From Blattabacterium sp. (Mastotermes darwiniensis) str. MADAR (GTDB lineage Bacteria > Bacteroidota > Bacteroidia > Flavobacteriales > Blattabacteriaceae), in contig NC_016146.1 of assembly GCF_000233435.1 (NCBI RefSeq), positions 221,701 through 285,700 of the forward strand: a stretch of 64,000 nt of DNA. Direction: 5' to 3'. The notes beneath the pieces are model-generated. The model was given only the letters and a program-made list of their open reading frames with translations. It searched no databases and had not been told where the DNA came from. Of the stretch, positions 16,121 to 33,999 are shown piece after piece (the first letter of the stretch is position 1; each line of letters begins with the position of its first letter). The position numbers and the translations under genes are program-made.

Positions 16121-17823
16121 AAAAAATAGATAGAGAATCTTATGCAAGGATGTATGGTCCAACAAAAGGAGATAAAATTCGTTTGGGAGATACTTCTTTA
16201 TGGATTGAAATAGAAAAAGATTATACAATTTATGGAGATGAATGTGTTTTCGGAGGTGGAAAAGTAATTCGAGACGGAATGGGACAACATCCATTTGCAA
16301 CAAGAGACGAAGGAATCCTGGACTTAGTCCTAACTAATGCTATTATTATTGATCATTGGGGAATCGTGAAAGCAGATATTGGAATAAAAAATGGAGTCAT
16401 TGTTGGAATTGGGAAATCCGGAAATCCATATTTTATGGATGGAGTAACGAAGAATATGTATATTGGAGCGGGAACCGAAGTTATTTCTTCTGAAAATATG
16501 ATTGTTACAGCTGGGAGTGTGGACAGTCATGTTCATTTTATATGTCCTCAATTATTGGAAGTAGCTTTAGAAAACGGAACTACCACTATTGTAGGTGGAG
16601 GATCAGGTCCTACTACTGGTACCATAGCTACTAATTGTACTTCAGGAGTATGGAATATTCAACGAATGTTAAAAAGTACAGATCACATTCCTATAAATTT
16701 TCTTTTTCTTGCCAGTGGCAATAGTTCTCATCCTCAGGCCTTAATCGAACAAATAAAGGCTGGTGCTGGTGGTTTAAAAATTCATGAGGATTGGGGAAGT
16801 ACTCCATATGTTATAGATCAATGTTTAGAAGTATCGGAAAATCTAGATGTACAAGTGAATATTCATACAGACTCCTTGAACGAATCAGGTTATGTGGAGG
16901 ACACCTTAAAAATATTTAAGGATAGGACTATTCATACTTATCATACGGAAGGAGCAGGAGGTGGACATTCTCCTGATTTACTGAAAGTAATATCTTATTC
17001 CAATGTGCTTCCATCATCTACAAGTCCCACTATGCCTTATACTTGTAACACTATTGATGAACATTTAGATATGTTAATGATATGTCATCATTTGGATTCA
17101 AATATTCCAGAAGACATCGCATTTGCTAAATCACGAATACGATCTGAAACTATTAGTGCTGAAGGAGTATTACACGATATAGGAGCTATTAGTATGATGA
17201 GTTCTGATTCTCAAGCTATGGGAAGAATTGGGGAGATCATAAAACGAACTTGGCAGACAGCCGATAAAATGAAAAAACAACGAGGCTCTCTAAACAATGA
17301 TTCCTATAGAAATGATAATTTTAGAGTAAAAAGATATATATCTAAATATACTATAAATCCTTCTATCACTCATGGGATTTCAGAATATGTAGGATCCATT
17401 CATATTGGAAAAATGGCCGATTTGGTGTTATGGAAACCCTCTTTTTTTGGAGTAAAACCAGAATTAGTTATAAAAAGTGGAATGATTGTATACGCTAGTA
17501 TTGGAGATCCTAATGCTACTATACCTACTCCTCAACCGTTTATGTATCGTAAGATGTTTGGTTATTTTGAACAAAAATTGAGTAGTATTTTTATTTCTAT
17601 ACATGCAATAAATGATGGATTTATAGAAAAAAATGAAATAGAAAAGGAAATTAAGATAGTAAAAGGATGTCGTTCTTTATCCAAAGGAGATATGATATTA
17701 AATGAAGAAACTCCAAATATAAATATAGATCCAAAAACTTATGGAGTTTATATCAATGGAGAAAGAATACAATCAAAGCCATCGGATATTTTACCGCTTT
17801 CTCAAAGATATTTTTTATTCTAA
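16117..17823 (+). CDS. ureC: Urease alpha (catalytic) subunit
   Basis: UreC holds the dinuclear nickel site. All expected ligands can be seen: [11 protein letters not shown], the carbamylated Lys in [34 protein letters not shown], the flap His in [17 protein letters not shown], and the Asp in [11 protein letters not shown]. At 568 residues it is full length. No ureD, ureE, ureF or ureG follows it: the next features are a tRNA and a dCMP deaminase gene on the opposite strand. Nickel insertion must therefore rely on genes outside this window. Confidence 0.98.
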
Positions 17824-20514: not shown

Positions 20515-21507
20515 ATGTATACATTGGGAGAGTTTATTATAGAAAATAGGGATCGTTTTTTGTATTCTACAGAAGAATTGTTACGTTTGTTTAGCTCCAT
20601 TAAATTAGCGGCTAAGGCTATCAATAAAGAAGTAAACAAAGCAGGTTTAACAGAAAAAATTATAGGGAGTTCGGGGATAACTAATATACAAGGAGAGAAT
20701 CAACAAAAATTGGATGATTTTGCACATAGAGTTTTCATAGAATCATTTAAAAGCAGAAATGTAGTTTGCGGAATAGCTTCTGAGGAAAGCAAAGATTTTA
20801 TAGTTATTGTGGAAAAGGGGGAAAAAGAAAATCCTAAATATATTGTTTTGATAGATCCATTGGATGGGTCTTCCAATATAGATGTAAATGTTTCTATTGG
20901 AACTATATTTTCTGTGTATATAAGACGAACTCCTATTCCAATGGATTTAACAATAGAAGATTTTTTGCAGAAAGGAAATAAACAAATATTAGCAGGATAT
21001 ATTATTTATGGATCATCTACCATATTAGTCTATACAACAGGAAATGGAGTCCATGGTTTTACTTTGGATCCCTCTATTGGAACTTTTTATTTATCTCATC
21101 CAAATCTTCGTTTTCCTGAAATAGAAAGAATTTACTCTATTAATGAAGGAAATTATGCTAAATTTCCTAATGGAATAAAAAAATTTATAAAATATTGTCA
21201 AGAAAAAAAAGAAAATCGTCCTTATACAGCACGGTATATTGGATCTTTAGTAGGGGATTTTCATAGAAATATGATACAAGGTGGTATCTATATTTATCCT
21301 AAAACGGAACATTCTCCAGAGGGGAAATTAAGATTACTTTATGAATGTAATCCTATGGCTTTTTTAACAGAACAAGCTGGTGGAAAAGCTTCTGATGGAA
21401 AGAAAAGAATTCTAGATATAAAACCTTTAAATTTACATCAAAGGACTCCATTTATTTGTGGACCTGTAAGAATGGTTTCTAAATTGGAAGAATTTATGGA
21501 TCGGTAA
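20515..21507 (+). CDS. fbp: Fructose-1,6-bisphosphatase class I
   Basis: FBPase removes the 1-phosphate from fructose 1,6-bisphosphate and is a marker of gluconeogenesis. The metal-binding loop [24 protein letters not shown] and the active-site segment [23 protein letters not shown] are intact. GIASEES near residue 90 supplies metal ligands. The 330-residue length is typical. The preceding 121-base gap to the divergent plsC is A/T-rich, contains TAACTTTT (one base off the -7 consensus), and shows no further gene. Confidence 0.96.
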
Positions 21508-21523
21508 AAATAAAACAAAAAAT

Positions 21524-21896
21524 ATGGAAGTAAAATTGAAAGGGAAGAACAATATTATTGATACAATGAAATACGGAAAAACATTTTCCGATTTTCCAAT
21601 TTATACATCAATACTATTGTATCCAAAGAAGAATATGAAAAGAATAGAACTAATTGGAACTTTGGTAAAAAAAAAATTTTAAAAAGTCAGTTCATAGAAA
21701 TAGAATCAAACGGTTATTACGATCTTCTTTTTTATTGAATAAATCTGTTTTAGAAAAAAATATAGTGGATGGTTATCATATTGTCTTTCTTTATCAAGGA
21801 AAATTTATACCTAAATTCAAAGAAATTGATCAATCCATGAAAACAATATTTTATGAAATAATAAGATCAATAAATCAGGATCATAATCCTTGTTGA
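21524..21896 (+). pseudogene. rnpA: Ribonuclease P protein component, split by a 10-A tract
   Basis: Two frames together encode a complete RnpA. From ATG 21524 the first reads through GKTFSDFPIYTSILLYP and RIELIGTLVKK, then hits TAA at 21680. The second frame carries the diagnostic basic motif FKKSVHRNRIKRLLR and continues to TGA at 21894, ending NQDHNPC. The junction is a run of ten A at 21667-21676; nine A would join the halves into a 123-residue protein of normal length. As drawn it is a pseudogene, but conserved sequence on both sides argues for polymerase slippage rescue or a sequencing error. It overlaps marC by 16 bases. Confidence 0.88.
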
Positions 21897-22462
21897 AATA
21901 ATTGACCAACATTTGCTCCAAAAATCTTCACGGAAAATGCAAGTAAAACAATTCCAAATATTTTTTTTAGTATATCTAAACCGTTTGTTCCTATTTTTTT
22001 AGCGATAAAATCACATCGGTCTATAACAAAATAGACAACAATCATATTCAATATTAGAGATAAAAGAATAATGTTAACATCATAAGTTGTTCTTAGTGAA
22101 ATTAGAGTAGTTAAAGATCCTGGTCCAGCTATAAGTGGAAAGGCTATTGGAACTATAGAAGTTTGAGCATTTTCTGTAACTTTATGGATATCTATTCCTA
22201 GTATCATTTCTAATCCAATTAGAAATAACACTATAGATCCTGCTACAGAAAAAGAGTTAACATCTACACCAATGATTTTGAGCATAGGTTGTCCTAAAAA
22301 TAAAAAAGATAAAAATATAAGAAGAGAAGTGATTATCACTTTTTTAGTGTCTATAATGTTTCCTTTGGATTTAAAACTCATAATTATGGGAGCATTTCCT
22401 AATATATCTATAATGCTAAAAAGAATCATAAAACAACTGATTAATGAATTAATCCATTCCAT
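21881..22462 (-). CDS. MarC family integral membrane protein
   Basis: A six-helix inner-membrane protein of the MarC/UPF0056 family; no transport substrate is established for the family. Recognised segments are DILGNAPIIMSF, FSVAGSIVLFLIGLEMILG and FPLIAGPGSLTTLI. ATG at 22462 (MEWINSLIS) is preferred over ATG at 22501, which would add 13 unrelated residues. The 3' end overlaps the frameshifted rnpA on the opposite strand. Confidence 0.85.
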   Translation of the reverse strand: MEWINSLISCFMILFSIIDILGNAPIIMSFKSKGNIIDTKKVIITSLLIFLSFLFLGQPMLKIIGVDVNSFSVAGSIVLFLIGLEMILGIDIHKVTENAQTSIVPIAFPLIAGPGSLTTLISLRTTYDVNIILLSLILNMIVVYFVIDRCDFIAKKIGTNGLDILKKIFGIVLLAFSVKIFGANVGQLFQQGL

Positions 22463-22544
22463 ATTATTTATTTTATTGCCCAGTAAGTAGTGGAAATACA
22501 AACATAATATTTTTCACCAATTAAAAAAAAAAACTTTACATGTT

Positions 22545-32992: not shown

Positions 32993-33002
32993 AAAAGAAC
33001 AA

Positions 33003-33291
33003 AAGAAAGACTATAAGCCGGATTCTGTTTCTATTCCTATCATTTATCTAGGATAATAGTTACCCATTATCTCTATCTGCCTACCCCCCGGTATCAACCG
33101 AGCAAGTTTTCCGGTATACATGGCATTTCACCGTACAGAGTTTACATGATTTCACTACAGCTAAACTGTACTTTCTTTCTGTTGCACTATTCCTCACCTT
33201 ACAGTGGATGGGTGTTACCCATTGTACTGCTCTATGGTGTCCGGACTTTCCTCATTTTTATTTAAAAAAAATGCGATAGGACGTCTTACTT
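33003..33291 (-). ncRNA. rnpB: RNase P RNA
   Basis: This is the catalytic RNA that removes 5' leaders from pre-tRNAs. The minus strand shows the conserved 5' core GAGGAAAGTCCGGACACC, the central GAAATGCCATG-like region and GGGGGGTAGGCAGA, and the 3' core GAATCCGGCTTATAG. P1 would pair AAAGTAAGAC (33292-33283) with GTCTTTCTTT (33011-33002), one mismatch. The ends are estimated from this helix. The 5' P1 strand includes the yebC stop codon. Confidence 0.93.
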
Positions 33292-33999
33292 TATGTTAGA
33301 GTAAATATTTCTTATATTTTCATTTTCTTTAAGTTTTTCAATAAAATTGTATATTTTTTTACTGTTTTCTTTTGAAAGTAATTTTGGATGTTTAGCTATA
33401 CGTTTTACCATAGATCTATGAAAAATTTTCATTCTTTCTAAATTATTTTTCATAGGACCAAAATATTCAAAATCTGTGTATATATAGATATTATTTTCAT
33501 CTTTTATAATATCCTTTGCCCCAAAATCTATTACCATTAATTCAAAATTTTCTATTGGAAAAGAAATATCCTCTTTTTTGATAGAGAAAAAACCTATTCT
33601 ATTAAATAAATGGGTTAACTCTCCATTATGACATAATCTTCCTCCATTTTTGGATAAAAAGATTCTTATATCGGAAGTAGTTCTAATGCTGTTATCCGTT
33701 AAACACTCTATAATCATACTAATTCCGTAAATTCTTCCTTCTAAATTTAAACTTTTATAATTTTTTGTGTTATTTTGTGAGGCTTTTTGTATAGTTCTTT
33801 CTATAGTTTCTTTAGGGATATTCATTGATTTTGCATTGATAATGGCCTTTCTTAAACGATAGGAGGTTTTTCTATCCGATCCTGATTCTTTAACTGCAAT
33901 GGATATTTCTCTAATAACTTTAGAGAATTTTTTGGATTTTTTAAAATCTTGATTATATTTTCTATGTTGGATGTTGGCCCATTTACTATGTCCTGACAT
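33286..33999 (-). CDS. yebC: YebC/PmpR family protein
   Basis: A conserved YebC-family protein. Members are described as transcriptional regulators, and some act on the translating ribosome. The start MSGHSKWANIQHRK, the KSKKFSKVIREISIAVKESG segment and NIPKETIERTIQKAS are diagnostic. The 237-residue length is normal. Its TAA stop (33288-33286) falls within the P1 strand of the RNase P RNA gene that follows on the same strand, so transcript ends and processing must be shared. Confidence 0.93.
   Translation of the reverse strand: MSGHSKWANIQHRKYNQDFKKSKKFSKVIREISIAVKESGSDRKTSYRLRKAIINAKSMNIPKETIERTIQKASQNNTKNYKSLNLEGRIYGISMIIECLTDNSIRTTSDIRIFLSKNGGRLCHNGELTHLFNRIGFFSIKKEDISFPIENFELMVIDFGAKDIIKDENNIYIYTDFEYFGPMKNNLERMKIFHRSMVKRIAKHPKLLSKENSKKIYNFIEKLKENENIRNIYSNIK

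Follow-up and report, generated by a model that had tools for sequence, protein, structure and literature searches.

Both halves of a frame-split rnpA are conserved across Blattabacterium, and slippage at one A-run probably supplies the full-length RNase P protein

The window analyzed here is a 64,000-nucleotide stretch of the genome of Blattabacterium sp. (Mastotermes darwiniensis) str. MADAR (NC_016146.1, positions 221,701 to 285,700), in which rnpA, the gene of the RNase P protein, is flanked by fbp and a marC-like gene. The features of the locus, in window coordinates, are as follows.

20515..21507 (+): fbp, fructose-bisphosphatase, upstream of rnpA; marker in the tree and in-frame control
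21524-21896 (+): whole rnpA
21524..21682 (+): 5′ half of rnpA, 52 aa from ATG to TAA, with LVKKKF as the last residues before the stop
21667..21676 (+): 10-A run, where the frame breaks and slippage is proposed
21669..21896 (+): 3′ half of rnpA, read in the +1 frame as KKNFKKSVHRNRIKRLL..., with the RNR motif inside and no start codon before it
21677..21682 (+): TTTTAA, with the stop of the 5′ frame; UUU UAA A is a possible site for a rival +1 ribosomal shift
21881..22501 (-): marC-like gene, downstream and convergent with rnpA; marker in the tree and in-frame control
32998..33292 (-): rnpB, the RNase P RNA and partner of RnpA, 208 bits

From the ATG side of rnpA, A10 (21667-21676) is followed by T4 (21677-21680) and A5 (21681-21685). 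The 5′ frame runs from the ATG at 21524 to the TAA at 21680-21682 and encodes 52 aa; the 3′ frame has a TAA just before it at 21666-21668 and stays open to the stop at 21894-21896. Re-reading of the A10 and of both frames thus bore out the split that a preliminary description had placed at this tract. When the A-run is shortened by one A, the halves join as a 123-aa protein, as that description had also proposed, and this joined product matched Pfam PF00825 over residues 4-110 (E 3.7e-11, 43.5 bits, cut-off 22.3). The 3′ half by itself matched the second half of the profile (E 3.1e-9), and the 5′ half by itself gave no Pfam match. The 3′ half contains RNRIKRLLR, which fits the RNR motif RNxxKRxxR, and RN..[KR]R was found in rnpA of 49/49 genomes of the genus; both the profile match and the motif place the joined frames in the RnpA family. 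Alignment to the RNase P proteins of known structure 1nz0 and 3q1q put the break just ahead of the RNR motif, inside one small domain. rnpB is intact in the window, 11 kb from rnpA, as previously described. The window also holds, at 16267-16561 (-), an Rfam match of 56 bits to the 5′ ureB small RNA (RF02514, an antisense RNA family known from Helicobacter), which may reflect ureB coding similarity only.

The comparison covered 49 genomes of the genus including the window's, with about 2.2 kb round rnpA taken from the 48 others and the frame read on both sides of the run. rnpA was present in all 49, between fbp and marC, and its ATG start lay at a comparable place in 48/49 orthologues. When the frame was scored by the distance from the Val/Ile codon before the run to the Lys-Lys codons after it, the two halves were out of frame at one common A-run in 38/49 genomes. 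Eighteen, the window's included, showed a distance of 13 nt (16 in L051), a multiple of three plus one (phase 1), and 20 were in the other wrong frame, with a distance of 14, one short of 15 (phase 2); among the remaining genomes, ten were in frame and one (G060) carried a stop at the site. The break fell within the single A-run in every out-of-frame rnpA (38/38), and each of them retained 8-12 A following the Val/Ile codon. The frame split, found in 38/49 congeneric genomes, is thus much wider than first noted and far beyond chance, and the comparison of the tract among Blattabacterium genomes that the preliminary description had proposed found most of them out of frame too, in both wrong frames. 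As a separate observation, rnpA of L037 (G007) is in frame at the A-run but departs from the conserved frame downstream of HIVF, over its C-terminal 30 residues; this shift apparently occurs at a T-run, a second length-variable site.

A wrong length of the A-run, through an error of sequencing or assembly, had been named at first as the simple alternative. Homopolymers are indeed error-prone and the Bge genome was partly sequenced by 454 (PMC2768785), but such an error would have to break the frame at one site in each of 38 genomes. Moreover, about 135 other A/T runs of ≥10 in the window's genome have both flanks in one frame, an approximate count in which some junctions agree by chance, vs. 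four other confirmed in-gene breaks, and at the same 49 loci, 9/9 runs of at least nine within fbp and marC lay inside in-frame matches. Error therefore appears highly improbable, and with 38/48 scorable genomes out of frame at the same run it is removed as a general cause.

The constraint on the two halves was then quantified in 15 non-overlapping close pairs with both members out of frame, using a simple counting method on these short halves, and was compared with a neutral simulation based on the genes' own AT-rich third-position composition. The pN/pS values were 0.49 for the 5′ half and 0.43 for the 3′ half, while those of the simulation were 1.01 and 0.91 and never fell below 0.69. No stop was found in the 15 pairs vs. 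neutral expectations of 25 in the 5′ half and 36 in the 3′ half (simulation minimum 9 and 21). Consistently with the earlier claim that both halves, the RNxxKRxxR motif downstream included, are conserved, these results point to purifying selection on each of them, and the claim that rnpA still works is strongly supported by the comparison across the genus.

The 2009 Bge paper took rnpA as a true pseudogene, with RNase P active as RNA alone, and noted that the RNA of RNase P is active in vitro even when no functional protein is present (PMC2768785). However, both halves are constrained, no stops occurred in the tested pairs, and rnpA has been lost from 0/49 genomes, so that this reading carries very little probability; as general causes, sequencing error and pseudogene are both untenable. 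Conservation of both halves would also suit a split protein whose halves are translated separately and then assembled, but no ATG, GTG or TTG precedes the RNR motif of the 3′ half in 37/38 out-of-frame genomes. With such a codon in 1/38 only, the motif cannot be reached through reinitiation from a shared start codon; in addition, ten relatives encode a single chain and the break lies inside one small domain (aligned to 1NZ0), which leaves the split protein scarcely credible.

In the 2009 Bge paper, rnpA was reported as the only pseudogene of that genome, ended at codon 53 of 118 by a stop that was ascribed to a possible A-to-T change, and RNase P was suggested to work without the protein (PMC2768785). 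G060 (L075), which matches the published Bge genome, keeps both rnpA halves in a single frame, interrupted by a TAA at codon 53 of 118. It is the same gene and the same spot as the break in the window; the published cause is a point mutation, whereas length changes are favoured here, as the site reads A10 then A5 in G060 and A10 then A6 in near relatives. Two length changes (A10, then A6 to A5) would explain the stop better than a point mutation. The A5 in place of A6 in G060 stems either from a pair of indels or from an error in the sequencing of the second run. With the present result, the published listing of this core RNA-processing protein as a pseudogene is corrected, and it is a warning that annotation pipelines misfile such genes.

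To follow the frame over the genus, a maximum-likelihood tree of 48 tips was built from fbp and marC (521 columns; two genes, several weak branches). The frame state (in frame, +1, +2) required at least 24 changes over the 48 tips, and when the three states were scored singly, the starred branches by themselves forced 9, 12 and 15 changes. Scoring of all four labels together gave 25 changes vs. a shuffled mean of 23, and since this is no lower than with shuffled labels, the frame of rnpA is without phylogenetic signal. The frame differed in 17/24 nearest-neighbour pairs. In-frame genes made up 10/48 vs. the one third expected if the frame is irrelevant, that is, no excess (P 0.07 in the opposite direction, kinship ignored). 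The Blattabacterium symbiosis has been dated to more than 140 million years (PMC2768785), and the frame flips suggest that the written frame of rnpA has been of little consequence over a very long period.

Genes with a homopolymer frameshift rescued by slippage would make transcripts of varied A number, some in frame, and at the DNA level they are recognized by a single break within an A/T run of at least about nine, by recurrence of the break across species and by intact halves under purifying selection. rnpA combines all three of these DNA features, with 38/49 genomes affected and at least 24 changes. We therefore consider rnpA probably a working gene in which the DNA frame at one A-run is nearly neutral, full-length RnpA being most likely given by slippage, probably of RNA polymerase. 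RNA polymerase would slip at the run of about ten A and produce a mixture of transcripts, some with a shorter and some with a longer A-run; part of this mixture would then be in frame in each species, for the window's rnpA the transcripts with nine or twelve A (-1 or +2), and would give full-length RnpA regardless of the run length in DNA. Replication slippage would meanwhile alter the DNA run freely, so that the frame flips among close relatives, and selection would maintain both coding halves and the long A-run. The A-run was interrupted in 3/10 in-frame vs. 0/38 out-of-frame genomes (Fisher 0.007), an uninterrupted run that slippage of either polymerase or ribosome would predict, although frame breaks also occur more readily at long runs. 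AAG seemed to be avoided inside the run (1/114 vs. 5.4%, P 0.02), weakly supported as related genomes were counted as independent.

Slippage of the ribosome on mRNA of genomic length would demand a -1 shift on A AAA AAA in phase 2 and a +1 shift at UUU/CUU UAA, like that of prfB, in phase 1. A suitable codon context was present in 32/38 genomes overall, with an in-frame A AAA AA slippery site in 20/20 phase-2 genomes and [UC]UU UAA in 12/18 phase-1 genomes. However, the +1 context is missing from the other 6/18, sister species would need opposite directions, and no stimulatory RNA fold was found downstream of the A-run in the window (z 0.28), which counts against the ribosome. A programmed ribosomal frameshift has one direction and one conserved slippery context, often with a stimulator, a pattern that rnpA does not show, and ribosomal slippage is thus regarded as unlikely. 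Slippage of the polymerase could in principle serve both wrong frames, while that of the ribosome has to act in opposite directions in the two classes. The proposal of the preliminary description that polymerase slippage rescues rnpA hence gains support for slippage from the genus comparison; we infer the polymerase, rather than the ribosome, as the slipping enzyme, and likewise that sufficient full-length RnpA is made.

Slippage of the polymerase on A-runs of such lengths is established in bacteria (PMC5009743), and at poly(A) runs in genes of aphid and ant endosymbionts, 12-50% of the transcripts were corrected (PMC5009743; see also PMC3017870). In contrast, a transcriptome-wide survey of Buchnera found mostly insertions on runs and the frame never restored (PMC5574713), which counts against polymerase slippage here, as the class of the window needs -1 or +2. 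As summarized in PMC3017870 and PMC5009743, frameshifted genes of Buchnera and Blochmannia are corrected by transcriptional slippage at poly(A) runs (Tamas 2008; Wernegreen 2010). According to these summaries, they resemble rnpA in being otherwise intact genes of AT-rich insect endosymbionts with a frameshift at a long A-run, some of them shared between species; they differ in that these reports concern a few species, whereas Blattabacterium rnpA is affected in 38/49 genomes, in both wrong frames and with a frame state saturated on the tree. Programmed slippage of the dnaX type and in IS elements likewise uses about nine A to shift the frame of the product (PMC1088944, PMC5009743), but extra products arise there, and the rnpA site seems only to restore one. 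A search of the literature, with subscription papers outside its reach, found no paper linking Blattabacterium rnpA with slippage.

Other homopolymer breaks were identified by gene-by-gene comparison of the window's genome (G000) with G053, since junctions between genes inflated the number of breaks when all A/T runs were surveyed by flank homology. Four other genes were broken at runs of ≥10, all of them outside the window; their names are putative and were read from the sequences.

G000:C1:526686-526695; L142-L157: A-run (A10) of mvaK, mevalonate kinase-like
G000:C1:477286: A11 of a 5-formyltetrahydrofolate (5-formyl-THF) cyclo-ligase-like gene
G000:C1:501479: A10 of a menG/ubiE-like gene
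G000:C1:465228-465242: T15 at which a ribD-like gene is broken

Split matches indicated that mvaK is split in 17/49 genomes, the cyclo-ligase-like gene in about 10/49, the menG-like gene in about 7/49, and ribD in about 3/49, with nearly all relatives intact. All 17 mvaK breaks lay at or beside one A10-A11 run with the same wrong frame and the same correction, unlike rnpA; mvaK is listed as a pseudogene in one strain (PMC6039017). Judged from these sequences, rnpA is the extreme of a series of run-broken genes in the genus. We lean towards the view that its genomic frame is selectively neutral genus-wide, a selected slippery run decoupling the frame of the DNA from that of the protein, and that mvaK, the cyclo-ligase-like and the menG-like genes represent earlier stages. 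With its dozens of frame flips, rnpA thereby offers a natural experiment on how far slippage can shield genes from loss by frameshift. Besides these, a miaA-like gene (A11; C1:455987) and an addB/PD-(D/E)XK-like gene (A10; C1:575180) were broken in G053 and intact in the window's genome.
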